In this document: positions 35,318 to 61,108 of the stretch, piece after piece
How positions within the stretch are numbered: the first letter of the stretch is position 1
How the letters are laid out: each line of letters begins with the position of its first letter
Origin: Candidatus Bathyarchaeota archaeon A05DMB-2
GTDB taxonomy: Archaea > Thermoproteota > Bathyarchaeia > Bathyarchaeales > Bathycorpusculaceae
Direction: 5' to 3'
NCBI GenBank assembly: GCA_018475625.1
Contig: JAAKEZ010000001.1
Location: forward strand, 248,001-312,000
Length of the DNA stretch: 64,000 bases
Notes under the pieces: model-generated
Told to the model about the DNA's origin: nothing
Database searches by the model: none
What the model saw: only the letters and a program-made list of their open reading frames with translations
Made by a program: the position numbers and the translations under genes

Positions 35318-35377
35318 CCTTTATAAGCAAATTGACGGGGGGTCCCGCATGGCGATGTTACCTTGGTTTTCTGCATG

Positions 35378-36661
35378 TTAAAGCTTCCTTTTCCTGAAGA
35401 TTTTGGCGCCTTCAAACTCTGTGACATATTCGAATCCTGCCTCGATTAGGCTGCATATTTCTTTTTCTGTTTTGGCTACTTTAGAGAGGTAGTCTTGCTC
35501 GCCTTGGAATAGCGCTTCTTCAAGCTGGACGTAGAGCAGCGTGTTTTTGATGTTCTTATGCCCGAGGGCTTGCATTACGTAGTACATGTCTTTGGTTTTG
35601 TGGTAGAGCATTGTGCCTTTCCAGTATCGGAGGGTGTGGAAGTGGATTTTCATTATGCGGGGGTTGCGTAGTTTGTGGGCTATGCGTTTGCGTTGGTGCT
35701 GGAAGGTTCCTGCGTGATGATCTACTGGCATGTCTGGGCGAGAGAATACTCGTGGTCCATAGTTTCTGGGTAGTTTCTGGAGCATTTCTATGAGCTTGTT
35801 GCTGAGGTGCACGACTCTTGGGTTGCTGTTTTTTTCAGGGGTAATGTTGACTACTTTGCTTTCGAAGTCTATGTCTGCCCATTTGAGCATCCAGACTTCT
35901 CCGCATCTTGCGCCTGTTTCCTTGAGCATTTGAAGGAATGTTGCCATGCGTTGACTGCAGCCTGCTATGAGCTGGTCTATTTCTGTTTCTTTCGGGATGA
36001 ACGGCAGCTTTCGGACGGTTTGGTAGAGTGGTGCTTCCCATTTGCCGCCTACCATTTTTAGGAATGAGGTGTAGGCGTCGACTGCGTTGTTTTTTCTTCC
36101 GTTGCTCCATGGCTGCTTAGCTATGACTGCTTTCATGCTTTCTGGGTCGTAAAGGTTGGCTCCGCGTTTGGTGAGAATTCGCAGCAGTTTTGTTCTTCCT
36201 TGGATGGTGGTGTCGCTTTTGCCGTCTTTTTTGGGCCACCAAGCGTATTCGAGGATTTTTGCTTTGGCATCGCTAGTTTCGTTTCTTCGCAGAACTTCAG
36301 TTTTTTGTTCTGCGGCCAAGTTTTTCGTCTCCGTGACGCATATTTGGCTGCTATGTACTATGGTGTCTCCGCTTTTTAATGACTGCCTTTCAATCCTTTC
36401 AACGCGTTCCAACGTGCTCCAAGCCTTCTGAACATCATTAGGGTCAGAAAAACGCAGACCGCATTCGCGGCAAAGCCACCTTTGGATTTCGTCGCCGAAA
36501 ATCGAGTACCTATGTCCATCGCGCCAGAGCTTGTTGCTATCGCAGTGCGGGCATAGGGGGTTGGCGCCGGCGGACTCAGCAGAATCCGACTTACTGTTGT
36601 TAGAACCGGCTTTGGTGCCAAATATGCTGTCTCTAGAAATGGTGTGTGTAAGTCCAGCCAT
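35378..36661 (-). CDS. Tyrosine recombinase/integrase with N-terminal zinc ribbon
   Basis: 427 residues. A zinc ribbon (C37-x2-C40, C64-x2-C67) recalls transposase DNA-binding domains. A SAM-like core-binding domain lies at ~130-215. The catalytic domain has the full set: Arg252 (TGARCGEVW), Lys near 277 (EKNSN), His342-x2-Arg345 (FHTLRYWKG), His368 (ALGHKNIKN) and Tyr377 (TLLYVQL). The gene is intact, unlike SSV-type integrases split by integration. Its 3' end faces tRNA-Leu, consistent with integration at that gene. Confidence 0.92.
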   Translation of the reverse strand: MAGLTHTISRDSIFGTKAGSNNSKSDSAESAGANPLCPHCDSNKLWRDGHRYSIFGDEIQRWLCRECGLRFSDPNDVQKAWSTLERVERIERQSLKSGDTIVHSSQICVTETKNLAAEQKTEVLRRNETSDAKAKILEYAWWPKKDGKSDTTIQGRTKLLRILTKRGANLYDPESMKAVIAKQPWSNGRKNNAVDAYTSFLKMVGGKWEAPLYQTVRKLPFIPKETEIDQLIAGCSQRMATFLQMLKETGARCGEVWMLKWADIDFESKVVNITPEKNSNPRVVHLSNKLIEMLQKLPRNYGPRVFSRPDMPVDHHAGTFQHQRKRIAHKLRNPRIMKIHFHTLRYWKGTMLYHKTKDMYYVMQALGHKNIKNTLLYVQLEEALFQGEQDYLSKVAKTEKEICSLIEAGFEYVTEFEGAKIFRKRKL

Positions 36662-36899: not shown

Positions 36900-37205
36900 C
36901 TACTTGAAGAATTCTTCGTCTCGCAATTTCTGGCTGCCTCTGAAGTACCTGTGTTTTCTGCAAAATTCCAGGATTTTAGTCAAGAGCGGATCGTTGCCAC
37001 TCTCAAACTCCCGTTTGAAACCAATTTTTCCAGTTTGTACGCGGATTTCAAACATGCCGTCGTTGGCAAGAAGCTGGTAGAAGCCCTGTTTCTCGCCCGA
37101 GTACTCCTCGAGCACTTCCCAATTATCAACAAGATTAACCAATACGATTTCACCTTGAAGGTCTTGCAAGCTGAGAATAAAAAGTATCCATCGTTGCAAA
37201 GACAT
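36900..37205 (-). CDS. Hypothetical island protein, 101 aa
   Basis: A soluble mixed alpha/beta protein. Segments such as YSGEKQGFYQLLANDGMFEI, VQTGKIGFKREFESG and LLTKILEFCRKHRYF look like genuine coding sequence. It starts at ATG 37205. It is located between the winged-helix gene and the integrase on the same strand, so the three may be co-transcribed. No family is recognised. Confidence 0.5.
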   Translation of the reverse strand: MSLQRWILFILSLQDLQGEIVLVNLVDNWEVLEEYSGEKQGFYQLLANDGMFEIRVQTGKIGFKREFESGNDPLLTKILEFCRKHRYFRGSQKLRDEEFFK

Positions 37206-38299: not shown

Positions 38300-38584
38300 T
38301 CATGTAATGTGTTTGAGTGTTTTCTTGCTTCTTATTCGATTTATGAGGAGCATAGCTCCAACAACAGTGATTGCGATAAACGCGGCTAAACCTATCCATT
38401 GAATTACCCAAAGTATTTGATCTAACAAAGGTTCTGGTTTAGGGATCGGCATAGGGGTTGGTTCTTGCGATGTTTGTTCAGGGAAGAGAATGTAGCTCAT
38501 TCCTACCAGCAGAAAGGCTAGCGCTACAGCAAGGACTGCTGCTGCCGCCATTGTCATTTTTTGCCCAATCAAAGCTTCACACAC
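38300..38584 (-). CDS. Small two-TM membrane protein
   Basis: 94 residues. The first span (AAAAVLAVALAFLLVGMSYI) and second span (IGLAAFIAITVVGAMLLI) flank an outward Pro/Glu-rich loop (QTSQEPTPMPIPKPEP); a basic tail follows. It is divergent from the membrane-bound regulator at 38721, with the perfect palindrome at 38630 between them, so the two may be controlled together. The function is unknown. Confidence 0.6.
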   Translation of the reverse strand: MCEALIGQKMTMAAAAVLAVALAFLLVGMSYILFPEQTSQEPTPMPIPKPEPLLDQILWVIQWIGLAAFIAITVVGAMLLINRIRSKKTLKHIT

Positions 38585-38629
38585 TTATCTGCTATTCTTA
38601 CGTTCGAAGTCTGTTATTTAATACTATAT

Positions 38630-38650
38630 TTTTGTACACAGTGTACAAAA
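38630..38650. promoter_or_regulatory. Perfect palindrome TTTTGTACAC-A-GTGTACAAAA
   Basis: A 21-base perfect dyad in the divergent intergenic region, with an extra AGTACAC half-site 6 bases on (38656-38662). The distance to the divergent starts (46 and 71 bases) fits an operator serving both genes, perhaps autoregulation by the 38721 regulator. Confidence 0.75.
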
Positions 38651-38720
38651 GATTAGTACACTTGTTAAACGCATTTTGTGATAAGTTTTAATTGCCGCCT
38701 CCATTTAATTAGATTAGGCG

Positions 38721-39149
38721 TTGGATTTGAGTGACAGAGAATCCAAAGAGATCCTTAAGGGAACAACGCTTGAAATCTATCGTCTATTATTAAAAACCAA
38801 TAAACCGCTCGGAATTAGAGAGATTCAAAGAGCTCTGAACTTGAGCAGTCCGTCCCAAGCTCAGTATCATCTTAATAAACTTGAGGAAGCTGGTCTGCTA
38901 AAAAGGGAAATGGGCAATTACGTAATAAACAAGGTTCTCTTGGAAAACTGCGTAAGAATCAGCCGTTTCCTTATTCCAAGATACCTCTTTTACTCTATAT
39001 TCGCCATCGCAATCTTGCTAATTGAGGTTGTCCTTCTCAGGCCAGTTGTTCTCAACCGAGAATTTTTCTTGTTTGTTGCTGCAACGTTAATATTTGTTTT
39101 AATTTTCTGCTATGAAACCGCGAGAGTATGGCTTAAACGCAGTTTATAA
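38721..39149 (+). CDS. Membrane-tethered winged-helix regulator
   Basis: 142 residues from TTG 38721. The N-terminal ~75 residues are an ArsR/MarR-like winged helix: EIYRLLLKTNKPLGIREIQR, ALNLSSPSQAQYHLNKLEEA, and GLLKREMGNYVI as the wing. Two membrane spans follow (LFYSIFAIAILLIEVVLL and FFLFVAATLIFVLIFCY). A one-component sensor with its DNA-binding domain inside the membrane face is the natural reading. A paralogue with the same layout lies at 60600-61019. It is the best local candidate for controlling the island promoters (inference). Confidence 0.8.
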   Translation: MDLSDRESKEILKGTTLEIYRLLLKTNKPLGIREIQRALNLSSPSQAQYHLNKLEEAGLLKREMGNYVINKVLLENCVRISRFLIPRYLFYSIFAIAILLIEVVLLRPVVLNREFFLFVAATLIFVLIFCYETARVWLKRSL

Positions 39150-39240
39150 CTCCGTTAATGCGAACACCTATTAACTTCGTTGCTTGCCCAACAGCTGCAA
39201 CGCTAATTATTATTTGCTTTTTACACTTTGGTTAGAGAAG

Positions 39241-39310
39241 TGTCCTATAATTCTGTACATGTTGTCCTAAAATTTAGAACAAGTGTCCTAAAGCGTAGAA
39301 ATAAATTATA
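39241..39310 (+). promoter_or_regulatory. Island promoter box, copy A (three TGTCCTA repeats)
   Basis: TGTCCTA occurs at 39241, 39263 and 39284, steps of 22 and 21 bases. The third is followed by AAGCG-TAGAAATAAATTATA, in which AAATAAATTATA supplies the TATA box. The gene start is 75 bases on. It includes CTGTACATG between the first two boxes. Confidence 0.75.
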
Positions 39311-39384
39311 AAAAAGAGAGTTTAAGGTAGGAGCGCTGAGTGTGGGGCGCAATGATAAGAAATTTCCCAACTGATAGGAGAATA

Positions 39385-39897
39385 ATGGAAGTAAATATTA
39401 TGAAAAAATACTTCATTATCCCTACAGCACTGTTTCTAATGATAGGCATCCTTTTGGTGCCACTGGCAAGCGCAGCGACTTACTACATATCAAGCGTCCA
39501 TTCTTATGGAACATATGGAGCAGGCACTGTTTCTAACCCGAGCAATATAACAGGTAGTTCACCTAATAATGCCTATGCGCGCATAAGAGGCGTTTCATCC
39601 TCTGGCGACGGCGGTTACATAATTGGATTAACGAATGCAGCAGTACCTGCGGGTTCAACCGTCAAAATTTACGCCTTCTCAGCTTACGGCTACTACAGCC
39701 GTGTCCATGTGTACGTTTCATACTACAGCGATGGCCCTTGGTACGAGGTAGGGTCGGGTCTAACAGTAAGCAGTGGACCTGATTGGTACAACTTCGGTTA
39801 TACAACACAAAATTACAGATACGTTGCAGTCGCTAGTATTTATGAGGGCGGACAGCCCACAGACGTATACATAGATTGTGTCCAAATAACCACTTAA
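39385..39897 (+). CDS. Small secreted Tyr/Gly/Ser-rich protein
   Basis: 170 residues from ATG 39385 (TAGGAG just upstream; ATG 39400 possible). A signal peptide (YFIIPTALFLMIGILLVPLA, cut after SASA-type Ala) precedes a ~140-residue mature domain of short beta strands rich in Tyr and Ser, such as IYAFSAYGYYSRVHVYVSYY and YVAVASIYEGG. There is one Cys near the end and no membrane anchor, so it is released. It looks like a beta-sandwich of jelly-roll type; the function is unknown. It is the first gene under a copy of the island promoter box. Confidence 0.65.
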   Translation: MEVNIMKKYFIIPTALFLMIGILLVPLASAATYYISSVHSYGTYGAGTVSNPSNITGSSPNNAYARIRGVSSSGDGGYIIGLTNAAVPAGSTVKIYAFSAYGYYSRVHVYVSYYSDGPWYEVGSGLTVSSGPDWYNFGYTTQNYRYVAVASIYEGGQPTDVYIDCVQITT

Positions 39898-40237
39898 AAT
39901 AAATATGCCTTAATTACCCCCTACAACCCCTTTTTATTTACTCTTAAGAGCCACACATCAGCTATAACTCATTATTGATTGTTTTATTATGTTGTTGCTG
40001 GTTTAGCGACTTTGTTGCGCTCCCGCATTTTGCGGTTACAAACTTGCCAGACACAAGTTATTTCAGTCCAACAACTCTACCAAATGATAACTCGTTAATC
40101 GCATACGTTGATTGTTTCCCAAAGAAGCAAAGTCGCTTGGAGTTTAAGTAGCCTAATAACAAGAGAAAAAGGCTTAAGAAAGCAATGCTATGCTTTTGAT
40201 TTACTGCTCAAGAAGAACTTCTCTTAGAGCCCTGTTT
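39898..40237. other. Intergenic region with a 10-base inverted repeat
   Basis: No gene seen between convergent units. It holds AGCGACTTTG (40005-40014) and its exact inverse CAAAGTCGCT (40128-40137), enclosing 113 bases. This could be a small non-autonomous element (MITE-like) or chance. CCCCTTTTTATTTA near 39930 may terminate transcription of the secreted-protein gene. Confidence 0.3.
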
Positions 40238-40915
40238 TTATTTGATTATTTTTCCATCATTTAAGAAGAGCATCCGTTCCGCGTGTGCTGCAATTTGCTC
40301 ATCATGTGTCACCATTATTATCGTGGCGCCCTGCTTCTGGTTAAGATTTGCTAGTAGCTTCACGATTTCCTGTTTGCTGTTCTTGTCCAAGTTTCCTGTT
40401 GGTTCATCCGCTAAGATTATGGCTGGGTCATTAGCCAATGCCCGTGCGATAGCGACTCTTTGCTGTTCGCCTTGACTTAACCGTTGAGGCCTATGCTGTT
40501 CGCGTCCTGACAAGCCAACCATAGCAAGTAATTTTAATGCTCTCTGTTTTCTTTGTTCTTTGAATTTGCCCGCGAGCTCCATAGCTAACTCGATGTTTTC
40601 TCTGGCGTTAAGGTATGGCAAAAGATTGAAGTTTTGGAATATAAAGCCTATTTTGTCTCTGCGTATCTTGTAGAGTTGCGATTCTGGAAGGCGTGCGACG
40701 TCAACTTTGTCAAGAAGCACTGTGCCGCTTGTGGGTTTGTCGAGGCAGCCAATGATGTTTAGGAGTGTGGTTTTGCCGCTGCCTGAGGGGCCCATGATGG
40801 CTGTGAATTCTCCTCTTTTGACCTCAAGGTTCAAGTCGGTCAAGGGCTGTACATCTCGTTTGCCAAGCTTGTATGTCTTGGTCAAGTTCTCGATTTTAAG
40901 TACCACCTCATTCAT
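40238..40915 (-). CDS. MacB/LolD-type ABC transporter ATPase
   Basis: About 225 residues from ATG 40915, overlapping the permease gene end by 8 bases; a longer frame starts at 40981. It contains Walker A GPSGSGKTTLL, Q-loop FIFQNFNLLPYLNA, signature LSQGEQQRVAIARAL, Walker B ILADEPTGNLD and switch VTHDE. The FQNFNLLP and LSQGEQQR variants are those of the MacB/LolD/FtsE group, which work with FtsX-like permeases to move lipids, peptides or signals by a mechanical stroke rather than by import. Confidence 0.92.
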   Translation of the reverse strand: MNEVVLKIENLTKTYKLGKRDVQPLTDLNLEVKRGEFTAIMGPSGSGKTTLLNIIGCLDKPTSGTVLLDKVDVARLPESQLYKIRRDKIGFIFQNFNLLPYLNARENIELAMELAGKFKEQRKQRALKLLAMVGLSGREQHRPQRLSQGEQQRVAIARALANDPAIILADEPTGNLDKNSKQEIVKLLANLNQKQGATIIMVTHDEQIAAHAERMLFLNDGKIIK

Positions 40916-42215
40916 AGCGCATTGCCTCCGCTGGTCGTATTCTTGCGGCTCTCCAAGCAGGATACAAACTTCCAAGCGCACCTAACAGTAAGGCAGCGCC
41001 TACGCCGAGTAGTATAAGTTGCGGGGTTATGGTTACAGCGGGAGGAACTGATGTTAGAATTCCCTCCTCTGTCAGTATAAGGTCAAATCCAATTTGGTTT
41101 AGGTGCGGAAGCAGTAAGTACGCTAGTGGTGATGCGACGACTATGCCTATTGCTATGCCGATTATGCCAGCGATTAGGCTTAGCAGTACGCCTTCAAGCA
41201 TAAACTGCCCAAGAATTGTCGTGTTGCTGGCGCCAATTGCTTTGAGTATGCCTATTTCTCTGGTTCGTTCACGCACCGTATATAGCATTATAAGTAATAT
41301 TATTGCACCTTGAGCAGCGACCACCAAACTTATTTCCACTATAGCAGTGCTTTGTATTTGATTCATTGTATTTTGTACTTCTTGCATACGGTTGTTGGCT
41401 CTCGATTGCAAGTCCAGAGCCTCATTTATTACAGAAGTAGCTAGTTCAACCCGAAGGCTAGGGTACGCAGCTTTGATGTTGTTTGCGATTGCACCTACGT
41501 TATCAATGCTGTTAGCAAAGACGTGGAATGTTGTTGCTTGTCCAGTCGTGTTAGTGATGGTTTGAGCTTCCTCAAGACTCATGTAGGCAGCAGTTACATT
41601 ATATTGGTTCAATCCCTGATACGAACCTCGTCCCTGAATGCCTACTACCTTAAAGTTTTGTCCTAAAATGTTAACTGTCCCACCTACGTCAACACCGAAC
41701 TGGTTTGCAACTATTTCTTGCAGAACGACAACGCCTCTGTCTCCAGCCTGCAGATTTCGACCGGCAGTAATATTCGAAGGCAAAATCGACGGAAAGCCAT
41801 CAACAAAAGAAGCATCCAAAGGTATACCATAGACATCATATAGGTATTCGTCTTGAGCCCATTGGTCTTGCCTAAGTATTGGTATGACCGCAGTGACATC
41901 TGGAATTAAGCTAAGTCCTGCGTAATCAGTCACGTTCATAAGGGGATACAAAATAGGTCGCGTGTTACTATCGAAGGACAGGACTATTGGAAGGTAGCAG
42001 TCTATTTGGGTTGCCACCATATTTAACTTCAAAGCTTGTTTTTCGACATCAGCTGTTAGGTCATCAATAACTTTTTGGGCGGCTTCTTGGTTTGCAGTGA
42101 TGCTAGGCGGAAGGATGATTAGCATTGCTAAGGCAAGGCTTAATGCGGCAATTACTAGTAGAGCTCTTGTTTTTCTTCTGGTAATGTTTCTGGTTGCTCT
42201 TGTTAGAATACCCAT
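40908..42215 (-). CDS. FtsX/MacB-like ABC permease
   Basis: 435 residues. TM1 near the N-terminus is followed by a ~230-residue extracytoplasmic MacB periplasmic-core-like domain (INILGQNFKVVGIQG-type strands). Three C-terminal spans follow, with RERTREIGILKAIGASNTTI between TM2 and TM3, the classical FtsX motif, and a final LGALGSLYPAWRAARIRPAE. It pairs with the downstream ATPase. The promoter region at 42251-42290 carries the island box. Confidence 0.92.
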   Translation of the reverse strand: MGILTRATRNITRRKTRALLVIAALSLALAMLIILPPSITANQEAAQKVIDDLTADVEKQALKLNMVATQIDCYLPIVLSFDSNTRPILYPLMNVTDYAGLSLIPDVTAVIPILRQDQWAQDEYLYDVYGIPLDASFVDGFPSILPSNITAGRNLQAGDRGVVVLQEIVANQFGVDVGGTVNILGQNFKVVGIQGRGSYQGLNQYNVTAAYMSLEEAQTITNTTGQATTFHVFANSIDNVGAIANNIKAAYPSLRVELATSVINEALDLQSRANNRMQEVQNTMNQIQSTAIVEISLVVAAQGAIILLIMLYTVRERTREIGILKAIGASNTTILGQFMLEGVLLSLIAGIIGIAIGIVVASPLAYLLLPHLNQIGFDLILTEEGILTSVPPAVTITPQLILLGVGAALLLGALGSLYPAWRAARIRPAEAMRYE

Positions 42216-42250
42216 TTTCTATCTTTACTTCATACTTACCAACAACTATT

Positions 42251-42290
42251 TATTTCTACATTTTAGTACACCTGTCTAACCATAGGATTT
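42251..42290 (-). promoter_or_regulatory. Island promoter box, copy F (divergent)
   Basis: On the minus strand, TCCTATGGTTAGACAGG precedes TGTACTA-AAATG-TAGAAATAAATAG, aligned with the + strand copies (TGTCCTA-AAGTG-TAGAAATAA). It lies 36 bases upstream of the ABC permease start. The first box is weaker and the step is about 19 bases. Confidence 0.55.
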
Positions 42291-42349
42291 AGAATGCTTG
42301 CCACCTATCCGCAAATACCTCAAGAGTAAGAAACATTAATGCAGTCACT

Positions 42350-42622
42350 TCCACGGCTGCTAAAAAGCCTAAGCATATAATTGCCACCGTACTGCTCCTA
42401 CCGATTCTTATTTCCACCGCTGTGGTAACAGGATACTCAACCGTGCAAGTTCAGACCTTTTCCCAAGAAAAATGTCCTCTTCGCAAGGCTAATAATATCT
42501 TAATTTCTAACAAAACAGTTGCCTACAGTACGACCCCTCCAAAAGGTATCATTGTCGCCATTTTTACTGAGTTTGCCTACTTTCACGTAATACGGAAACT
42601 CGGACGGATGACAAGGTATTAA
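42350..42622 (+). pseudogene. Possible remnant of a secreted-protein gene
   Basis: One frame reads KKPKHIIATVLLLPILIST then AVVTGYSTVQVQTFSQE, like a signal peptide plus mature N-terminus, but without an upstream start codon. It continues 70 codons to a stop with no recognisable domain. It lies between the divergent ABC permease promoter and promoter box B, so it may be a broken member of the secreted set. Confidence 0.3.
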
Positions 42623-42705
42623 TTCCACAGTATTAGAACATCGAGAGTAGCACATCTTGGGTAAGTCAAAACATTATTCTTACAACAAAGCGATTGAAAA
42701 GGAAG

Positions 42706-42750
42706 TGTCCTAGAGTTTAGGACACCTGTCCTAAAGTGTAGAAATAAGTA
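42706..42750 (+). promoter_or_regulatory. Island promoter box, copy B
   Basis: TGTCCTA-GAGTT-TAGGACA is a perfect 7-5-7 dyad. Exactly 21 bases on is TGTCCTA-AAGTG-TAGAAATAAG, followed by a TAATTC TATA-like end. The 16 bases before it (AGCGATTGAAAAGGAA) are almost the same before copy D. Confidence 0.8.
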
Positions 42751-42776
42751 ATTCTTGTTTAGTATGGTTAGTAGAA

Positions 42777-43745
42777 ATGGGAGGTGAAATAACGGTTAGT
42801 GGGAAAAGTGCTTACTGCTTGGCTTCTGTACTCCTTAGCTTAACGGTGCTTTGCTCAATGATGCTTACGGTAGCAGCCCAGACGAATAACCTAACGTCTG
42901 CCATTGGATCATGGCAGCCTCCGAAGAATTTTGTTGATCCGGTTACCTTGAAAATTCAGGAATTCAGGTCGCAAGGGTTGGATGATGAAGAAATAACGGC
43001 AAAGCTTGCGAAGCTAGGGATGGGCTGGTACCCTGAGACGGGTGCAACGTGGATGGGAAGAGTGTTGACTCCTGAAGAACTTGCTGAGATGCCAATTAGA
43101 GCGCCAGTTAAAGCTCCCTTAGACGAAAATGCAGTTCTATCGACCGGCAGAGCCTCGTGTATGCGGACTAATTATGCTTCTTGGACTGGTGTTGCCTCTG
43201 AAGTAGTTTCTGGTTCTATGAGTGTCAGTTCAGGACAAACACGGTACCACTACTTGTGCGTGCAGTTAGGAAACTTGGACAGCGGAACGAACTGGGTAGA
43301 AATAATGCTTACGCACAACTATGGTGAAACCTATAAGTGGTATACTTACGATTCGGATGAAGGCGGTGGTCTTGTATATTACATGGATAAAAATACGCCG
43401 ATAACAGCAGCTGATACTTACGTTATTATGTTGGATGGCACGCAAGACGGTGGCGGTTGGCACTATGATGTTTGGATAAATTATCAGTGGGTCAGGCGTG
43501 GACACTTGTCAAATCTTTGGGTTCAAGCAGGTTTCCAGAAAGAAGTTTATAGTTATAGTGACAGCGGGCAATTTACTAATGATGCTTCGCATGCGGTATT
43601 CTACCGAAACTGGTTGCACAATGATCAAGGATGGCCCTACTGGACAAGCTCCGCGAGTACATGGTGGTACACAGCGGCGCCAGTGCGAGAAACTCACTCA
43701 ATGGGTGCTGTTAGCTACCGCTGGGAGACATGGGTGCAGAACTAG
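42777..43745 (+). CDS. Secreted protein of unknown family (322 aa)
   Basis: The N-terminal hydrophobic segment (CLASVLLSLTVLCSMMLTVA, to ~residue 34) is a signal peptide. A charged propeptide-like region follows (IQEFRSQGLDDEEITAKLAK, then GMGWYPETGATWMGR). A beta-rich C-terminal domain is full of Trp, Tyr and Gly (YHYLCVQLGNLDSGTNWVEI, WHYDVWINYQWVRRG). The layout resembles neprosin-like or jelly-roll hydrolases but no active site is certain. ATG 42777 overlaps GGGAGGTGA, leaving no ribosome-binding site in front, so the true start may be a non-ATG codon just downstream. Confidence 0.65.
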   Translation: MGGEITVSGKSAYCLASVLLSLTVLCSMMLTVAAQTNNLTSAIGSWQPPKNFVDPVTLKIQEFRSQGLDDEEITAKLAKLGMGWYPETGATWMGRVLTPEELAEMPIRAPVKAPLDENAVLSTGRASCMRTNYASWTGVASEVVSGSMSVSSGQTRYHYLCVQLGNLDSGTNWVEIMLTHNYGETYKWYTYDSDEGGGLVYYMDKNTPITAADTYVIMLDGTQDGGGWHYDVWINYQWVRRGHLSNLWVQAGFQKEVYSYSDSGQFTNDASHAVFYRNWLHNDQGWPYWTSSASTWWYTAAPVRETHSMGAVSYRWETWVQN

Positions 43746-43815
43746 CAACGCGAAAGTTGCTTATCTTCATTCCAGACGGTCTCTTGGCTTCAAGTGGCAA
43801 ATTTAAACGTTCAAC

Positions 43816-43862
43816 TGTCCTAGTGTTTAGTACACTTGTCCTAAAGTGTAGAAATTAATATT
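43816..43862 (+). promoter_or_regulatory. Island promoter box, copy C
   Basis: TGTCCTA-GTGTT-TAGTACA, then after a 21-base step TGTCCTA-AAGTG-TAGAAATTAATATTCG. The gene start at 43917 is 55 bases on. Confidence 0.8.
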
Positions 43863-43916
43863 CGTATCTATTAAGATAGAGACGCAAGACAAATAGTCTT
43901 GACGGAGGCGAGAAGC

Positions 43917-44822
43917 ATGAAACGAAAAACCATAACGGTTGGTGCTCTACTGCTTCTAAGCCTACTATTTGTATCGGCGCCACAGCTATTCGGAGTGAAA
44001 ACAGCTAAAGCAGCCAATGCTGGCGTCATCTACGGTCCCAACTATCATATAGAATACCTTGATCTTCCCGGGGAAGAACAGCTCACCAGAGATGTCTGTA
44101 CGTACATGATGAACATGTTTGTATCTTATGGATACAATTACGGCTGGCTATACAAATGTGTTGACAGTGCGGCAACAAGATCGGCGTACGGTAGTAACGC
44201 CTACTATGCTGAAACGCACTACAGCGCTGCAACAGTATTCACTAAAGGACACGCCTCAGAGTATAAATGCAATCCGAATGGACCAAAACATCACTATTTA
44301 ATGGACACTAACGGCTTGCACGTGGAAGATGATTATATATGGCCTAACACGCCGTATGGTCGACATCGATTTGTTTGCACATGGCATTGCGGCACAACAA
44401 TGGATTACCCTGGCACAATTTGTCCATACTGCGGTGGTCGGACATCGCTTCCTTACGCTTGGACGCACAGCAACACTATGAACCTCGAAGCCTATACGTC
44501 ATCGACTGGTAACTATGTCTACATAGGACATGAAGGGTACTCGCCACAATTTCTAAATCCAACGGGCTGGGGAAGCTACAATCACGCTCATTACGTCTAC
44601 TACCTCTACTTGTACCTTCTACAGTATCATATGAACGTGCGCGACGCTGCGAGCTGGGCAGCATATTACACTTTCGGAAACTATTATTTGCCAGCAACTC
44701 AGTTGTATACGCTGCATTGGGTTGACCCACCAGACCCACCTCCACCAAACCCGCCATTTCCAGGTTTTTGGAGCAGGATGCACATCTTCGGCAACGGAAA
44801 CTTGGGATTGCCAGGGTATTAA
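43917..44822 (+). CDS. Secreted Cys/His/Tyr-rich protein, possible clan-CD peptidase-like fold
   Basis: About 301 residues from ATG 43917 (GGAGGCGAGAAG just upstream). A signal peptide (VGALLLLSLLFVSAPQLFG) is followed by a mature protein rich in Tyr, His and Asn. A strand ending in FTKGHASEYKC (His112) and, 46 residues later, a strand ending HRFVCTWHCGTTMD (Cys158) resemble the His and Cys strands of caspase/gingipain-type peptidases. C-x2-C (ICPYCGGR) after it may bind zinc. The C-terminus is Pro-rich (DPPPPNPPFPG) then Gly-rich. There is no anchor. The fold assignment is by-eye inference. Confidence 0.6.
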   Translation: MKRKTITVGALLLLSLLFVSAPQLFGVKTAKAANAGVIYGPNYHIEYLDLPGEEQLTRDVCTYMMNMFVSYGYNYGWLYKCVDSAATRSAYGSNAYYAETHYSAATVFTKGHASEYKCNPNGPKHHYLMDTNGLHVEDDYIWPNTPYGRHRFVCTWHCGTTMDYPGTICPYCGGRTSLPYAWTHSNTMNLEAYTSSTGNYVYIGHEGYSPQFLNPTGWGSYNHAHYVYYLYLYLLQYHMNVRDAASWAAYYTFGNYYLPATQLYTLHWVDPPDPPPPNPPFPGFWSRMHIFGNGNLGLPGY

Positions 44823-44837
44823 AGGAGCGAATAACAA

Positions 44838-45965
44838 ATGAGAAAATTTGTAACAAAAGTTCGGGGGCTTTTGATTCTTGCCGCAATTCTAGCGCTATTA
44901 CTTTCACAGACGTCTACGGTGCAATCAGCTTCTTCTACTGCCCAAGACAGAGCGCTAACTTTCATAACAGACGTATTTGAACTTGACATGACAAAGTACA
45001 ATGCTAAGATGGCAACCTATTCTGTGGACTATCCTTCGGAGCTAGGCGGCATCCAACAAGAGCACGTAAAGTACGACCTTCAAGCCAGTGAAAGCACCGC
45101 GACAGCATTCTTCTCATTCAACAATGGCACGTTGACTGCATGCAGTATAAGCGTAATGACAGGTTCACTTCTTTATGCTCAACCATCTGCTAATACACTT
45201 GACAGGGCAAGGGGTATCCTCGATAAATATCAAACTTACACGGGAAAGTCCGACTTAAAAGAAATGATAGATCTACTGAAAATGGTTGAAGGAAACAAGA
45301 ACGAAACTAAAACGCTCGGCAATATAAAACTAGAGGTTATAAATGACGCTTACCACACGTCGTTTGATTGGAAATATACATTCAACGGCGTCGACTACAA
45401 CGCAGTATGCATTATTTTTCAGGACAGCGGGATTTTCTTCTCTGATTACCTTAGCCTCTACAAGATTGGTAAGACTGACGTAAACATTTCAAAAGACCAG
45501 GCCATAGACATCGCCATGAAATACGTTGAAACTTTCTCGTATACAGGCGTTGTCAGTTCAGGAGGCAAAGAAGCCATTGTTGAGATTAGCGGGTTCAACA
45601 TAACTAAAGAGCTTACCAAAGCCAACCTAGCCACAAACTTCAGAGAACCTTTGACCTTCTATCCTTGCTGGAACATCGAGCTGTACCTCGACCAGAAACA
45701 GCCTTATGCCAACTATACATATCCAAGTGGAGTTTACGCCCTTTACGTTAGAATCTGGGCAGACTCTGGAGAAGTTTTCAGTTGCACTCCATTGGCTGTC
45801 GGCGGGCTCATTCCAGATGGCGAATCGGTATCATCTCCCTCACCTCAAGACGAGAATAATACTGCACAACCGTTGGATGCAAGCATGTTAGCCGCCATAG
45901 CTGTAGCCGTGATCATCGGAGCAGTAATCATGACGGCAGTAGCGTATAAGAAAAGACGCAAATAG
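44838..45965 (+). CDS. Secreted, C-terminally anchored surface protein (375 aa)
   Basis: Signal peptide (LLILAAILALLLSQTSTVQS), then a ~300-residue extracytoplasmic region with two PepSY-like alpha/beta units. Examples are TAQDRALTFITDVFELDMTK and ISKDQAIDIAMKYVETFSY, each followed by strands. A Ser/Pro stalk and a C-terminal span (MLAAIAVAVIIGAVIMTAVA) with KKRRK complete it. It lies 15 bases downstream of the Cys/His protein gene, so it is in the same operon. PepSY-like units often inhibit or regulate extracellular peptidases, which fits the nearby peptidase genes (inference). Confidence 0.65.
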   Translation: MRKFVTKVRGLLILAAILALLLSQTSTVQSASSTAQDRALTFITDVFELDMTKYNAKMATYSVDYPSELGGIQQEHVKYDLQASESTATAFFSFNNGTLTACSISVMTGSLLYAQPSANTLDRARGILDKYQTYTGKSDLKEMIDLLKMVEGNKNETKTLGNIKLEVINDAYHTSFDWKYTFNGVDYNAVCIIFQDSGIFFSDYLSLYKIGKTDVNISKDQAIDIAMKYVETFSYTGVVSSGGKEAIVEISGFNITKELTKANLATNFREPLTFYPCWNIELYLDQKQPYANYTYPSGVYALYVRIWADSGEVFSCTPLAVGGLIPDGESVSSPSPQDENNTAQPLDASMLAAIAVAVIIGAVIMTAVAYKKRRK

Positions 45966-45975
45966 ACCTCTCGTT

Positions 45976-45993
45976 TTCCTCCTTTTTTTATTT
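45976..45993 (+). terminator. Poly-T terminator
   Basis: TTTTCCTCCTTTTTTTATTTT lies shortly after the stop of the anchored protein, before promoter box D. Confidence 0.5.
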
Positions 45994-46068
45994 TACAGGT
46001 TCTATTCAAAGTAGCAGTCAAATTTTGCTCTTCATGCCCTGTAAACACTAAAGCGATTGAAAGGGAAG

Positions 46069-46118
46069 TGTCCTAGTGTTTAGTACAGGTGTCCTAAAGC
46101 GTAGAAATAAGTATTCGT
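46069..46118 (+). promoter_or_regulatory. Island promoter box, copy D
   Basis: TGTCCTA-GTGTT-TAGTACA, 21-base step, then TGTCCTA-AAGCG-TAGAAATAAGTATTCG. The AGCGATTGAAAGGGAA before it matches the flank of copy B. It drives the subtilase gene. Confidence 0.8.
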
Positions 46119-46158
46119 TCTTGCTATACCACAGCCCCCAAAAAAGGAGGAAAGAAAA

Positions 46159-47631
46159 ATGAAAAAAACCGCGGTTATAGGAACAATGTTGCTTCTCATT
46201 ATGCTTGGGGTTTCAATAATGCAACAGGCAGGAATAGCCGCTATAGCACAAGAACAACCCTCAACAATCGATGTTCGACAAATGCCTTTTCTTGACCAGA
46301 TGAGAACACGCCTTGACGAATACAATGAAGAAGCTGATTGGACTCTGAAAGTTTTCCCAACAGATGAACCTTACTTAGACGTTGCCGATGAGACAGTGTA
46401 TGTGGAAGTCTATGTTTCAGATGTAGATGATACAACTCAGCTCTCCGAAGACCTCAAAACTGGAAAGACCGAAAACGTTTTCCAAGTATACAAAGCGAAT
46501 GAACGAGCAGTTAAACAGTTAGCTGAAATTCCTCATTCATACTTTTACGCAAGTAAATTCAGCCCCTCAATCGGAATAACGATAGAAAAACAGATGTTAC
46601 AGCAAATAGCAAACATTCCCTCGGTGTACTGCATCAGAATCATACAACCGCTCGAACCATTCTTGACATGGGACCAAGTACGTGACCTAGATGACATAGC
46701 ATACACAATGGCTAACCATGATTCCACTTTGGATGCAGCAACCGCCATTGCAGTCATCGATTCAGGGTATGACGCTAGCGACTCGCTGTTCTACGGTTGG
46801 GCAAGTGATAACATTATGCCTTATACATCGTGGGACTTTACTGACGGCAACACTGATGTAAGTAATGGAGCGAATATGCATGGTTCTAGCGTTGCAGACC
46901 TTTTGGCACGAGGTTTTGGTGACAGCGGAGATAACGATGCAATGTACGAGAATCCAAATTTCTGGATTCCCCTAAAAATCTGTGACGACAGTTACAGCAC
47001 AGCTGAACAGTATGCTCCGCAGGCGATAGAATGGTGTATAGCGCATGACGTTGAGATAGTTTGCATGAGTTGGGGAGCAGATCCATGGTATCCATGGGGA
47101 ATCAATACATGCAATGGATGGTGGTGTGATAGATTCAGAACAGGCACTCTTGGTGGAACAACGTGGGTTGCAGCAGCAGGCAATGGCGCTCATACTAATG
47201 GCGTCGCATATCCAGCCGAAAGTCATTTTGTTGTCGGTATAGGAGCTTATGATCATAATCCTGCTCAGCGTGAAAGCTACAGCAACTATGGGAATACATA
47301 TTTTGCTACTCTGGACCCCTATGCGATATACTGCTTAACATGTTACAATGCACAAGGCTTCTTGGAATTTAAGCCGAATGCTTACGAATGCGGCTACTTT
47401 AATTACTGGGGTTATGGAAGCGGAACCAGCTGGGCAGCGCCACTTGCATGCGCAGATATCGCTATAGGAATGTACAGCCCAACCAACGGCGAATACACTC
47501 AGGGCTATGAATATCTTCTTGACGTAATCGCATTGAGCAACGAGTTTCCGGTAAGTCCCAGCGAATCAAGTCAACAAGGCGACGTCATCGATACACACAC
47601 ATTATGGCATAGAAGTCGAGTCTCTCCCTAA
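46159..47631 (+). CDS. Secreted subtilisin-like serine protease (S8)
   Basis: 490 residues with a strong ribosome-binding site (AAAAGGAGG). Signal peptide ~1-30, then a propeptide to ~168 with an I9-like ending (MLQQIANIPSVYCIRIIQPL). The catalytic domain has Asp201 (AVIDSGYDAS), His241 (NMHGSSVADLLA), oxyanion Asn342 (WVAAAGNGAH) and Ser424 (GSGTSWAAPLAC). All are intact. There is no C-terminal anchor, so it is released or wall-associated. It may mature the other secreted proteins of the island, as subtilases do in several peptide-export systems (inference). It is followed closely by a polytopic membrane protein. Confidence 0.9.
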   Translation: MKKTAVIGTMLLLIMLGVSIMQQAGIAAIAQEQPSTIDVRQMPFLDQMRTRLDEYNEEADWTLKVFPTDEPYLDVADETVYVEVYVSDVDDTTQLSEDLKTGKTENVFQVYKANERAVKQLAEIPHSYFYASKFSPSIGITIEKQMLQQIANIPSVYCIRIIQPLEPFLTWDQVRDLDDIAYTMANHDSTLDAATAIAVIDSGYDASDSLFYGWASDNIMPYTSWDFTDGNTDVSNGANMHGSSVADLLARGFGDSGDNDAMYENPNFWIPLKICDDSYSTAEQYAPQAIEWCIAHDVEIVCMSWGADPWYPWGINTCNGWWCDRFRTGTLGGTTWVAAAGNGAHTNGVAYPAESHFVVGIGAYDHNPAQRESYSNYGNTYFATLDPYAIYCLTCYNAQGFLEFKPNAYECGYFNYWGYGSGTSWAAPLACADIAIGMYSPTNGEYTQGYEYLLDVIALSNEFPVSPSESSQQGDVIDTHTLWHRSRVSP

Positions 47632-47649
47632 TGCGAGGTGGAAACAAGG

Positions 47650-48315
47650 ATGATTAAAGGCGAAAACATCTTCCTTCTTTTTTTTGGCTCAATAATGACG
47701 CTAATCTCGGGTTTGTTAACTGCCTTCATTCCAAGATTGGCATATGTGACAATTTATACCTTTTCAGAATTTCCATTAGAACTGCCAACTCCTCTAGTCA
47801 GATATTCTTCGTTGGAATTCAGCTTTCACCCAGCCACGTTAGGATTGTTGCTAGCAAGCGCTGGCGCTTTGACAACGCTACTTTCCCAAATTACGACTGC
47901 CAAGAAGGCAATGTACTTGAGTTCTGCAGGAATTTCATTAGGCAGCATCGGTCTCCTGCTATCTGCATGGCCACGTACGGAACAACATACGTTGTCCATA
48001 TCGTATCATTATGTCCAAATGCCTTGGGTGGGAACTATCGTCGCAATGATAGGCGTTTCAATGATGTTTATAGGTTTCGCGGCGAAAACCCGAATCTCGC
48101 GTATATTTCTTCTAAGTGTGCCAATACTGATGCTGCTTTATTCAGCAACCCCCATTATGATATTGAGCAACAATCTACTGTTGCTAGCTCCAGCGAGCGA
48201 CAAGGCTATGTTTGTTGGGATTCTCTTACTGGCGGGTCACGTGTTGATGCTAGCGGGAGCTTTGAAGGGTATTGAAGGAATCAAAGCAAAAATGAAAACT
48301 CAGAACTGTTCATAA
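47650..48315 (+). CDS. Polytopic membrane protein (about 6 TM)
   Basis: About 221 residues from ATG 47650 (AACAAGG just before; GTG 47638 possible). Hydrophobic segments include LLFFGSIMTLISGLLTAFI, LGLLLASAGALTTLLS, AGISLGSIGLLLSAW, TIVAMIGVSMMFIGFAA, RIFLLSVPILMLLYSA and VGILLLAGHVLMLAGAL. No family is recognised. It is 18 bases after the subtilase, so it is co-transcribed. An immunity or accessory role towards the protease or its products is possible but unproven. Confidence 0.65.
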   Translation: MIKGENIFLLFFGSIMTLISGLLTAFIPRLAYVTIYTFSEFPLELPTPLVRYSSLEFSFHPATLGLLLASAGALTTLLSQITTAKKAMYLSSAGISLGSIGLLLSAWPRTEQHTLSISYHYVQMPWVGTIVAMIGVSMMFIGFAAKTRISRIFLLSVPILMLLYSATPIMILSNNLLLLAPASDKAMFVGILLLAGHVLMLAGALKGIEGIKAKMKTQNCS

Positions 48316-48392
48316 CACGAAATCAAACAAGAAAAAGCCAAACTAAAAGTTCTGCTAACCTCAAAAATGGCTTTTTTTGATAACGTCCCATC

Positions 48393-48440
48393 TGTCCCAG
48401 TGTTTAGTACAGGTGTCCTAAAGTGTAGAGCTAAATATTC
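48393..48440 (+). promoter_or_regulatory. Island promoter box, copy E
   Basis: TGTCCCA-GTGTT-TAGTACA, 21-base step, then TGTCCTA-AAGTG-TAGAGCTAAATATTC. It lies 190 bases before the winged-helix/ABC operon, within a 312-base gene-free gap that otherwise shows nothing but the leader. Confidence 0.75.
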
Positions 48441-48627: not shown

Positions 48628-48945
48628 ATGAGTATGAGTAGAATAGACAGAATTAGTGAAGAGAGTGATTTCTATTTGTTGCTTAGTCTTTCAAGAGGCG
48701 CCAACTCTAGAAAGAAGATTTTGAAAACGCTGCTATCTGGTTCTAAAAGTTGTAATCAAATTGCGATAAACTTGGGATTAAACTGGCGTACCGCATATAG
48801 ACATCTTCAGATTCTGGAAAAAGAGAATTTAGTTAAGAGCTTCGGTTTTGGGCAACGAAAATTCTACAAACTAACGCAAAAGGGTGAAGAAGTGCTAAAG
48901 GGCTCAATCAAAAGCGAAAAAGTTTCGCCAAAAGCAAAAAAATAA
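48628..48945 (+). CDS. ArsR-like winged-helix regulator
   Basis: About 105 residues from ATG 48628 (GGGAGAAG upstream; ATG 48634 also possible). It contains RKKILKTLLSGSKSCNQIAI, then NLGLNWRTAYRHLQILEKEN as helix-turn-helix, and VKSFGFGQRKFYKLTQKGEE as the wing. A Lys-rich tail follows and there is no membrane segment. It heads the ABC operon and is a second candidate for the protein that reads the promoter boxes. Confidence 0.8.
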   Translation: MSMSRIDRISEESDFYLLLSLSRGANSRKKILKTLLSGSKSCNQIAINLGLNWRTAYRHLQILEKENLVKSFGFGQRKFYKLTQKGEEVLKGSIKSEKVSPKAKK

Positions 48946-55446: not shown

Positions 55447-56958
55447 TCAGCTTGCAGACCAGAACAAGTAAACTTTGGTCTGCAAGAGAAAACCGCACAA
55501 TCTGATTAGATGCGCGAGCTTTTCAACGCCAGCCGTCTTTAGCGCCTCAACATAATCTTTCTTGCGCCCAAACACCTGATGCGGAAACAAGTACTTCATG
55601 AAGCGAGTATGGCAATGCTTACTGAAAGCCTCTCTCACCTTTTCTAAATCCTCACCGCTTAAGGCTTGTAGCTTGTTCAAAACGTATTTCTCGCTTCCCA
55701 GCAGTTGAATGTTGAATCCGAAATACTCCAGAACCTCCGCAATTCTTAGTGCTTCTTTTGGCGGAGGCTGCTCAGCCACTTTCTTCATTCCAGCTTTCTC
55801 AGCGAATGGGTTGTATTTCGCCATAACCGCGGGCATCTCCACATTTTCGGTTCCAGCCAGAGGCAATGTTTCCTTGACAAGTTTTGAGCCTAAGCCTATT
55901 GTGCGGTACTTCGGATGCACAACCACGCGACTTATTATGCTCAGCTTCTGGTTCAGTTCTTTCATGCCCATTTTTGGCAAAACAAGCCTGCGTCCGAAGC
56001 ATGTAGGCGGCGGATAACAATAAACAATCACACCGCACAGTTCTTCTCCGCGTTTGAGGCAGAAGATTTTGCGGAGACCCGCTATCTTGTGGCTGCGGTA
56101 GTGAAAGCTGGCAAGTTTTTTCCAGTCTTCAGTTGTGCCTTCTGTCACTCGCATTTCCTTTATGAGACTGCACTCCTTGGCAGGCACGTTTGGATAATAG
56201 TTTACGGTTATTTCCTTTCCGAAGCGCTTGTGTATGTGCACTGAAGGGTTCAGGTCTTCCGCTAAATCGGTGTGAGTTGTAGCTGCCAAAACCGCCTTGC
56301 CCTGCTGCCTCGCGATTTTCTGCAAGTTAAACGCGATAATCTTGGCTGTATCCCTGTCTAAGCACGCGGCAAACTCGTCCATCAACCACCACTGCCTACC
56401 GCTCTCGATAAGTTTAGCAATTCGGTAACGGTACTTCTGCCCATCACTCAGCTGATTGTACGTACGCAGGAAAAGAAAGGCATCATTCAACCCTACCTTG
56501 CTCAGCAGCTCCAAGCCTTCTTCCACCGTAGCGCCCACCGTTTCAATCAGAGGCTTGTCCGCGTCCACTGCAACCTCTGAGAGGTCGATGGCTTCTTCAC
56601 CCAAATCTTGCTTTATCGCTCGGAGCAGGACGCTTTTGCCGCTGCCGCTGTCCCCCGTGATATACACTATGTCTCGTGGTCCAATGTTCAGCTCCGCGTC
56701 TAATACCTTGAATCGCTGCGCCTCATCAATGCCTAACCCGAAGGCTTCAGCCACCACAAGACTCCTCGGTGTCGGATTAGTATGCGTCTCATAGCTGATG
56801 TTAAACGTGAACTTGCCTGATTCCCGATCGTAGACTCGGCGGAACTGTCGTATGCGGAAAAACTCGTCTCGCCTTCTCGCAATTCGGCATACGCCGCTAA
56901 CCTTGCGTTCTGCCAGTTTCTTCCGAACACGCGCCAAATCAGATTTGCCGTTACCCAT
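55447..56958 (-). CDS. COG2401-type ABC ATPase fused to GNAT acetyltransferase
   Basis: 503 residues. The N-terminal ABC ATPase (~60-260) has Walker A GDSGSGKSVLL, signature QLSDGQKYRYRIAKL and Walker B WWLMDEFAACLDRD. The C-terminal GNAT domain (~270-450) has VVVHPKYRTIGLGSKLVKE as acetyl-CoA motif A. There is no membrane partner, so it is not a transporter. The family (ABC-type ATPase fused to a predicted acetyltransferase) recurs next to terminase genes in archaeal and phage DNA. Its start is 7 bases after the terminase stop. Confidence 0.88.
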   Translation of the reverse strand: MGNGKSDLARVRKKLAERKVSGVCRIARRRDEFFRIRQFRRVYDRESGKFTFNISYETHTNPTPRSLVVAEAFGLGIDEAQRFKVLDAELNIGPRDIVYITGDSGSGKSVLLRAIKQDLGEEAIDLSEVAVDADKPLIETVGATVEEGLELLSKVGLNDAFLFLRTYNQLSDGQKYRYRIAKLIESGRQWWLMDEFAACLDRDTAKIIAFNLQKIARQQGKAVLAATTHTDLAEDLNPSVHIHKRFGKEITVNYYPNVPAKECSLIKEMRVTEGTTEDWKKLASFHYRSHKIAGLRKIFCLKRGEELCGVIVYCYPPPTCFGRRLVLPKMGMKELNQKLSIISRVVVHPKYRTIGLGSKLVKETLPLAGTENVEMPAVMAKYNPFAEKAGMKKVAEQPPPKEALRIAEVLEYFGFNIQLLGSEKYVLNKLQALSGEDLEKVREAFSKHCHTRFMKYLFPHQVFGRKKDYVEALKTAGVEKLAHLIRLCGFLLQTKVYLFWSAS

Positions 56959-56965: not shown

Positions 56966-58252
56966 TCACCTTGGAATAACCGCTAAGAACGGTTCAGGCT
57001 CAACCTCCATCGACGCAGCCACAGCCAAACAAATACTCCAAAAACGGTCATCATGCGTACCCGGAGCATGAAAAAACCTGATGTTGCCCTCGCCCTCATC
57101 AGATTTGCCAGGCAACTCCTCAAACTGCTCAACCGCCAAATCCGCAATAACCTCTGGATCATAGTAAAAGCGGAAAAGCCTCTTACCCATCAACTGCTTC
57201 AGAAAGCTAGCGTACTTCTGCTTAGACTGAAGACTAAACGCTACGCCCTCAACCTCAGCATCCTCAATCTGCGAACGCAAAGCTTCAGCCAAAGCCCGCT
57301 CATTAGTCGAATCCACAAAAACACGCACCGTACTCTGCCACCGCTCACTCAGAACCTTAACGTGGCTAGCGATAACGTCGTACCTGGTGCCTAATGGGAA
57401 GATGTAGCTGTATCTTAAGAACCGTGTTTCACCAGCCTTCTCCACAACGCTAAGCGCCGCATTGTCAACTTCCTGACCAACGTCTAAGCCCATGTAGAAC
57501 TCTAAACCCTCAAAGCTGTCCTCGAAACGCCAAGGCTCCACCATACCCGAGTCAACGCATGCGGTTATCAGCTCTTGGCTTAGCCATCGCCCTGTGTCTT
57601 CGGTGAACTTGCATTCGTATTCGCGGCTGAAACGGTCAGGATCCAACTGCTGCCTCTGCAAATCAATGAACTCCTGCGTAATCAACCCCACTTCCACAGC
57701 TTTCCGCCAATCAGCCACAAAAGGCGTCCAAAACTTCGACACGCTCGGCTCATTCAGCGTCTTATAGTAGAAGCCGCGCCCCCAAGGCGTACTGTTAAGG
57801 ATAATGGAGGCGCCGCCAGCCCATCGAGTAGCCATCTGAGGCGTCAAAGTCCCCTGCACAAGCTCCTCGCACTCCTTGATGAAAGCCGCCTCTTCCACAT
57901 CCACGTCGTCACTGGTTTCGCCTCGCAGCTTCTCAAGGCTAAACGGGAAAGCCTTCAGCCTAGAACGATTGCACAGCCGAATAGTGGTTCTGAGAACTTT
58001 CTCAACCCACGCCCTGTAAGCCACAGGATCCATCTTGCTCAAGACATCGGACAGCTTCTCTAGAACAAGCTTTGCCTGACGTAAGCCTGGACCTGTGATT
58101 GTTGCTTGACTGCTTGGGCGCCGAACTCTACGCTTGAACAGCTTGATGCCTATGGATGTGGTTTTGCCTCCTTGTCGTGTCCACAAAACCGTCTGCTGCC
58201 TAGCATAATTCGTCAGAAAACTAAGCGGGTAATCCTTCGGCTTAAAATTCAA
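56966..58252 (-). CDS. Terminase large subunit (virus DNA-packaging ATPase/nuclease)
   Basis: 428 residues. The ATPase part has a Walker A variant WTRQGGKTTS (26-31) and Walker B region DVDVEEAAFI (~116-125). A motif III-like region (ILNSTPWGRG) couples ATP hydrolysis. The C-terminal RNase-H-like nuclease has Asp257 (MGLDVGQEVDN), Asp314 (VFVDSTNE) and a late THDDRFWS acidic pair. All expected acidic residues appear present. This is hallmark evidence for a tailed-virus origin. It overlaps the upstream decoration-like gene by 4 bases. Confidence 0.88.
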   Translation of the reverse strand: MNFKPKDYPLSFLTNYARQQTVLWTRQGGKTTSIGIKLFKRRVRRPSSQATITGPGLRQAKLVLEKLSDVLSKMDPVAYRAWVEKVLRTTIRLCNRSRLKAFPFSLEKLRGETSDDVDVEEAAFIKECEELVQGTLTPQMATRWAGGASIILNSTPWGRGFYYKTLNEPSVSKFWTPFVADWRKAVEVGLITQEFIDLQRQQLDPDRFSREYECKFTEDTGRWLSQELITACVDSGMVEPWRFEDSFEGLEFYMGLDVGQEVDNAALSVVEKAGETRFLRYSYIFPLGTRYDVIASHVKVLSERWQSTVRVFVDSTNERALAEALRSQIEDAEVEGVAFSLQSKQKYASFLKQLMGKRLFRFYYDPEVIADLAVEQFEELPGKSDEGEGNIRFFHAPGTHDDRFWSICLAVAASMEVEPEPFLAVIPR

Positions 58253-61102: not shown

Positions 61103-61108
61103 GCCCGT

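Follow-up and report, generated by a model that had tools for sequence, protein, structure and literature searches.

A tandem-dyad promoter element upstream of exported-protein genes in a Bathyarchaeota provirus remnant, and its candidate membrane-anchored regulator

In a 64,000-nucleotide stretch of contig JAAKEZ010000001.1 of Candidatus Bathyarchaeota archaeon A05DMB-2 (assembly GCA_018475625.1, positions 248,001 to 312,000; hereafter the window), a series of genes, mostly for exported proteins, is preceded by one and the same promoter element. This raises the question of what the element is, which protein would read it, and in what kind of genetic unit the set is carried. An earlier note, made from the letters alone, had reported pairs of TGTCCTA boxes 21 bases apart in front of five transcription units and had proposed a co-regulated secretome under cooperative activators or a dimer of dimers.

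All ten of these box coordinates hold (39263/39284, 42706/42727, 43816/43837, 46069/46090, 48393/48414), the box at 48393 being TGTCCCA, with one mismatch, and the extra box reported for copy A is found at 39241, 22 bp upstream. The window contains 16 copies of TGTCCTA; shuffled sequence gives 5.25 +/- 2.34. The 21-bp repeat resolves into alternating half-sites, in that TAGAACA, TAGGACA or TAGTACA stands at a constant distance between the paired TGTCCTA boxes, and a TAG with a TATA-like stretch follows 5 bp after the second box. The order is right-left-right(-degenerate left), TGTCCTA-N5-TAGKACA-N2-TGTCCTA-N5-TAGAAATAA, with TAGAAAT as the final half-site. The element is made up of two dyads, 21 bp from centre to centre, and the downstream one touches the B recognition element (BRE) and TATA box. 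A sixth site, which had been suspected on the opposite strand for the unit at 42215, is present, but as a weaker, degenerate match (element F). The copies are as follows (aa, amino acids).

39241..39310, + strand: element A, with a third TGTCCTA box at 39241, box 39263, TAGAACA 39275, box 39284, TAG 39296 and an AT-rich TATA region; before an exported 185-aa protein
42706..42752, + strand: element B, TGTCCTA-GAGTT-TAGGACA-CC-TGTCCTA-AAGTG-TAGAAATAAG; before an exported 322-aa protein (profile E 7.9e-15)
43816..43862, + strand: element C, before an exported 301/307-aa protein and probably also serving 44838-45965 (E 1.7e-15)
46069..46115, + strand: element D, before an exported S8 (subtilase) peptidase (E 2.1e-15)
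48393..48439, + strand: element E, first box TGTCCCA and TAGAGCTAA in place of TAGAAATAA; upstream of the HTH_45 regulator 48628 and the subsequent ATP-binding cassette (ABC) genes (E 1.2e-13)
42250..42291, - strand: element F, TTAGACA-GG-TGTACTA-AAATG-TAGAAATAA; upstream of the FtsX/MacB-type permease 40908-42215 (E 4.3e-5)

Elements B and D, which are probably duplicates of each other, also have an upstream flank of about 20 bp in common, AAAGCGATTGAAARGGAAG (42683-42705 and 46046-46068), either a local promoter duplication or a further element.

The genome-wide search that the earlier note had suggested, with the two-box matrix, gave no scatter at random positions. Across the 2.48 Mb of the genome, and with the same pattern read backwards as a control, the two-box pattern at up to three mismatches returned A to E, a site X on another contig (C3:53251) and one reverse-strand echo of B, and the control returned nothing. 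The half-element pattern returned A to F, site X and one unrelated match, against one match for its control. Site X lies 54 bp upstream of the ATG of a 405-aa exported protein and, like copy A, has a third TGTCCTA box 22 bp upstream. The element is confirmed as real and as restricted to these promoters.

The spacing holds in relatives as well. Twenty-six sites from this genome and its relatives, all within family f1, align across 47 columns without a gap and were used to build a 47-bp profile; the ungapped layout is present in about ten related genomes and on two IMG/VR virus contigs. Matches to the profile at E <= 0.01 were found in 33 of the 91 genomes of the family, the weak end of the list consisting of partial matches. 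Across relatives the general form is TGTNCTA-N5-TAGNACA-N2-TGTNCTA-N5-TAGNATTAAATA. A scan of GTDB genomes with the exact pattern returned Bathyarchaeota (for example JAAYYI010000067, our G024:C46) and scattered bacterial matches. Longer symmetric arrays of TGTNCTA/TAGNACA half-sites were seen in unrelated bacteria (L061-L073, for example Omnitrophota, Elusimicrobia and Iningainema); these probably belong to other regulators.

The genes downstream were examined in 50 distinct elements with an open reading frame (ORF) start 54-196 bp downstream (median 83). A hydrophobic N-terminus, indicating export or a membrane segment, was found in 42 of the 50 downstream ORFs (84%), compared with 42% of the genes of at least 150 aa in the same loci (Fisher test, 1.5e-8). 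Among the remaining eight, four encode winged helix-turn-helix (wHTH) regulators, and the target of X has a signal peptide just under the cut-off. The expectation of mostly exported proteins together with an ABC permease and a regulator is thus borne out, the permease being of the FtsX/MacB type and the regulator of the HTH_45 type. Most of the exported proteins have no Pfam or NCBIfam name, and no relatives of the window subtilase were found in the GTDB collection by the related-locus search. The targets in the window are listed below.

39385..39897, + strand: exported protein, target of A
42777..43745, + strand: exported protein without a Pfam match, target of B; an element likewise precedes its relatives in G028, G023, G024 and G022
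43917..44822, + strand: exported protein, target of C; a homologue follows an element on virus contig L299
44838..45965, + strand: exported protein with a C-terminal transmembrane (TM) segment, second gene after C
46159..47631, + strand: exported subtilase, target of D (PF00082, 2.6e-19)
48628..48945, + strand: ArsR-like/HTH_45 regulator, probable target of E
40908-42215, - strand: FtsX/MacB-type permease, target of F

Three regulator genes of the window, 48628, 37258 and 38721, had been named in the earlier note as possible readers of the element, and linkage singles out the last.

38721..39149, + strand: proposed cognate regulator of 142 aa with a TTG start, a winged helix (HTH_20) and two C-terminal membrane helices
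37258..37635, - strand: PadR-like wHTH protein of the integrase-side block, rival regulator

Within 12 kb, a member of the 38721 family is found in 27 of 38 element loci, a relative of 37258 in 8, a relative of 48628 in 5 and another wHTH gene in 2. Relatives of 38721 often precede an element on the same strand by 17-130 bp, and six of the nine profile matches in two other families of the order are no more than 0.6 kb from one. On this sequence evidence 38721 is the best candidate for the reader of the element. The gene at 48628 looks instead like a target, because an element is found some 320-390 bp from its relatives as well (about 320 bp in L083, L125, L129 and L130), and it is probably under the control of the element. 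A 52-codon ORF at 48472-48630, between element E and 48628, could be a leader peptide or the start of the 48628 unit.

The N-terminal helix-turn-helix (HTH) of 38721 matches HTH_20 in Pfam (4e-8) and occupies residues 15-69 of an AlphaFold model (mean predicted local distance difference test score 75, from four sequences) with a recognition helix at 44-56. Hydrophobic stretches judged by eye at about 84-106 and 111-133 coincide with modelled long helices at 71-106 and 113-141. The wing passes straight into the first long helix, leaving no HAMP-like or sensor region between the HTH and the TM segments in this 142-aa protein. The family reaches 12 copies per genome. A divergent member (37% identical) lies at 60600-61019, at the tRNA-Arg end of the island. 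A second clade of relatives (recognition helix ..HHLEQL; L185-L231, many) was seen in most genomes of the family, several of its genes being preceded by TGTTCTA-N5-TTGGACTTATA.

Within the 38721 family, the letters of the half-sites vary with the recognition helix. Paralogues with Q or E at residue 48 pair with TGTCCTA (C stands in box 3, the third half-site, in 17 of 20 elements, against 2 of 27 in the other residue-48 groups), TGTTCTA or TGTACTA boxes lie beside paralogues with another residue 48, and T or A at residue 45 goes with TGTNCAA boxes. In the AlphaFold model, both lie where the recognition helix begins. In G017, separate paralogues are each accompanied by a cluster of different half-sites. 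This match supports recognition and does not prove it, because it is clustered by clade and provides one or two independent contrasts.

Divergent from 38721 is a gene for a small membrane protein, with a variant of the element on its promoter side.

38300..38584, - strand: two-TM membrane protein
38614..38660, - strand: seventh element, with variant half-sites TGTACTA-N5-TTGTACA-N3-TGTACAA-N5-TAGTATTAAATAA

The seventh element was read from the sequence and not recovered by the profile search; in relatives and on a virus contig, the corresponding intergenic region upstream of 38721 retains a dyad resembling TGTACTA..TTGTACA. Relatives of 38300-38584 keep the first TM segment and an SYxxFP-like motif, with an outer part that varies (a Pro-rich loop, a NosD-type beta-helix or another domain), and the protein may be a sensor partner of 38721. 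Modular, sensor-like members of this type were seen at L094 6837-8183, L081 229-1545, L086 3996-4619 and L299 4712-6040.

The setting of the cluster is viral. The genes that mark it in the window are given here.

35378..36661, - strand: tyrosine recombinase (PF00589, 5.9e-20) beside tRNA-Leu 35233-35319
36900..37205, - strand: small conserved protein of the integrase-side block (c10)
55447..56958, - strand: ABC-ATPase and GNAT protein, beside the terminase in relatives and on virus contigs
56966..58252, - strand: terminase large subunit (phrog_2, 1.7e-27), 68-94% identical on four IMG/VR contigs
58249..58533, - strand: head cement/scaffold-like gene, 76% identical on virus contig L311
61083..61135, + strand: tRNA-Arg(CCT) cut down to its 3' end, with the native flank attached; probably where the integrated element ends on the right

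Genes for capsid or tail were not found in the window, where the genes between cement and terminase are gone and the two adjoin. Tail genes are present in G028, in G026 and on the virus contigs, and compared with virus contig L311, G026 and G028 the window lacks both capsid and tail genes. The order in G028 and G026 is integrase (abutting tRNA-Asn in G026), c6, c10, c9, a 38721 relative, elements with exported genes, ABC/GNAT, terminase and tail genes, c10 not being seen in G028. An ABC-type ATPase fused to a GNAT domain adjoins the terminase in most of these elements (also L290 4141-5598). Two virus contigs carry the promoter element itself. IMGVR_UViG_3300050336_000135 encodes cement, tail and terminase genes, the ABC/GNAT gene (73%) and c9, c10 and c6, and has three canonical TGTCCTA elements before exported proteins, homologues of the window targets 43917 and 44838, a 38300 relative and a 38721 relative that is 64% identical (helix SSPSVVQYH, with Q before YH). 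On IMGVR_UViG_3300045735_000089 are a terminase (88%), genes for tape measure and tail, and a single element, which precedes an exported-protein gene. Judged by its genes, the window cluster is part of a defective tailed-provirus remnant that would have retained a cargo regulon. The earlier idea of a co-regulated secretome stands as far as the shared element upstream of mostly exported proteins is concerned, but the cluster is no plain chromosomal secretome, since the module lies in such a remnant and also on virus contigs.

The island has an integrase (35378-36661), at its presumed left end, and a tRNA-associated end (the fragment at 61083). A simple attL/attR pair formed by tRNA-Leu and 61083 was rejected, as the right copy is the 3' end of tRNA-Arg(CCT) and the common 20-22 bp are the T-arm, identical in both tRNAs. 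The same identity to tRNA-Leu 35293-35312 (at 61083-61135, and in L262 at about 4850-4950) could mislead searches for attachment sites. The tRNA-Arg(CCT) with the same flank is intact in G003, of the same genus; an empty site could not be shown there, the flanks being rearranged.

The reading that we favour, at a probability of about 0.7, is that of a virus-delivered operator regulon read by the membrane-anchored 38721, which would most likely activate the exported-protein genes. The tandem operator would lie directly upstream of an archaeal BRE/TATA promoter. One dimer of 38721 would occupy the upstream dyad, TGTCCTA-N5-TAGKACA, and a second dimer would sit 21 bp, or two turns, further on, over the third box and the degenerate TAGAAAT half-site beside the promoter; both together would most likely activate transcription cooperatively. 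The regulon would comprise the exported proteins, the efflux-type ABC permease, the second regulator and, via the variant element, 38300-38584 as a possible sensor partner. Placed between the integrase and the terminase of a tailed provirus, the module would be virus-delivered cargo, that is, a lysogenic-conversion regulon. Binding by 38721, activation in preference to repression, the sensor role of 38300-38584 and any benefit to host or virus are what we infer here. The TATA-like stretch lies about 38-45 bp past the first base of the element, and a transcription start expected some 25 bp later would place the centre of the first dyad at about -58 and the third box at about -43. Cooperative activation is favoured because this predicted operator position matches the region bound by ArnR of Sulfolobus, which binds two inverted repeats with a 5-bp spacer at -43 to -84, both of them required (PMC6396743). 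Of the earlier proposal of cooperative activators or a dimer of dimers, two dimers on one face of the DNA agree with the phasing, and activation is read from the operator position.

Several observations weigh against this reading. The hydrophobicity criterion is crude, with a background of 42%. There is no 38721 relative within 12 kb in 11 of the 38 element loci, many of which are on short contigs, while others are not (for example L088, L235, L236 and L238). G003 has eight 38721 relatives, yet no element of the A-E type was found there by the profile search. Site X has TGTCCTA, but its nearest 38721 paralogue has T at position 48, and the match of helix and half-site follows clades and is in itself not significant. 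Finally, no viral genes were seen at X or at the modules of families f4 and f6 where these were looked at, although no systematic search was made; virus carriage is for this reason not universal, and the unit of regulator, operator and exported gene probably exists off viruses too.

The chief alternative as to the sign of regulation, which we consider rather unlikely, is that 38721 is a repressor: the box beside the BRE would block transcription factor B (TFB), and the exported proteins would stay silent until a membrane signal released 38721. The last half-site, TAGAAAT, does overlap the BRE region, and variant elements also occur in the upstream region of 38721 itself, as with autorepressors. 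Most of the operator, however, is upstream of BRE/TATA, where known archaeal activators bind, and the similarly built ArnR activates from its two repeats in that region. A different reader, 37258 or 48628, is less probable still; 38721 would then be linked to the element merely by travelling on the same viruses. In favour of this, relatives of 37258 are found in the same block in the window, L076, L081, L083, L125, L128, L130 and L299, and 48628 has an element in front of it, as expected of an autoregulator. The linkage counts (8 and 5 loci, against 27) speak for 38721, however, no relative of 37258 or 48628 is found at the f4/f6 element loci or at X, and the half-site variants follow the 38721 paralogues.

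Box 3, the TAG and the TATA could instead form an extended core promoter for a particular TFB, with the upstream dyad incidental, and several weaker matches (L248, L249 and L252) do keep just box 3 and the TAG at a fixed distance. We regard this as improbable, since box 3 is beyond the expected reach of TFB on the BRE, strong sites preserve every base of the upstream dyad and the half-site letters vary with the wHTH paralogue. That the copies are recent duplications of one promoter, with no regulatory meaning, is hardly credible: the flank of about 20 bp common to B and D would fit, but little beyond the 47-bp element is common to A, C, E, X and the copies from other genera, and that element is itself kept across families. 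Beyond the virus-delivered regulon read by 38721, we suggest tentatively, at rather less than even odds, that tailed viruses of Bathyarchaeia carry self-contained lysogenic-conversion regulons (a membrane-bound winged-helix regulator, a membrane partner with interchangeable outer domains and an exported set under a single operator-promoter), in which regulator and operator have co-diverged and keep several systems per host insulated, much as phage repressors fall into separate immunity groups.

Archaeal regulators bound to the membrane have been described before (PMC6396743, PMC10269533), and so have tailed proviruses in Bathyarchaeia (PMC11705971, PMC10848311). The latter, from the same host class, have an integrase beside a tRNA, a terminase and head and tail genes, of which the window island has the integrase, the terminase and the cement gene; in the main texts of PMC11705971 and PMC10848311 a keyword search turned up neither a promoter element common to several genes nor a membrane-bound regulator nor a regulon of exported proteins. 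A literature search gave no earlier report of a TGTCCTA motif in archaea, and a main-text keyword search of open-access papers gave none of an exported-protein regulon that is carried by a virus together with its own operator and membrane-bound regulator. Bathyarchaeia are abundant and almost without genetics, and few of their regulons have operator, regulator and targets all specified. If our reading is true, the locus would offer an operator and a regulator whose pairing can be tested directly, together with naturally occurring specificity variants from which a recognition code could be read; it would also be an instance in which a co-regulated secretome reaches an archaeal host by way of a virus.

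Three known regulatory systems invite comparison. The operator of BlaI, MecI and CopY, TACTACA-TA-TGTAGTA, has the same 7-2-7 layout as the inner 16-bp palindrome TAGKACA-NN-TGTCCTA here. A BlaI/MecI-type regulator was rejected, as 38721 has no Penicillinase_R (BlaI/MecI) match in Pfam and matches HTH_20/ArsR-type models instead. The pairs ToxR/ToxS and TcpP/TcpH (PMC10269533, PMC11323476) likewise have a DNA-binding domain fixed to the membrane, a membrane partner encoded alongside and exported targets, and 38721 has the DNA-binding domain and at least one TM segment in a single chain that define a transmembrane transcription regulator. It differs from ToxR and TcpP in being an archaeal ArsR-type winged helix with two C-terminal TM segments and almost no extracytoplasmic loop, 38300-38584 being the candidate partner. 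Similar in build are ArnR and ArnR1 of Sulfolobus acidocaldarius, membrane-bound one-component regulators with an N-terminal HTH and two C-terminal TM helices, here likened by description (PMC6396743). The ArnR operator, two inverted repeats of the type TCGAC-N5-GTCGA upstream of BRE/TATA with cell-surface targets (PMC6396743), corresponds to TGTCCTA-N5-TAGKACA plus TGTCCTA-N5-TAGAAAT, in which the second right half is degenerate. ArnR has another half-site, HAMP and sensor regions that 38721 lacks, and motility and pili genes as targets, in contrast to the exported proteins on a provirus here; if true, 38721 would represent a small ArnR-like class of regulators without a sensor domain.

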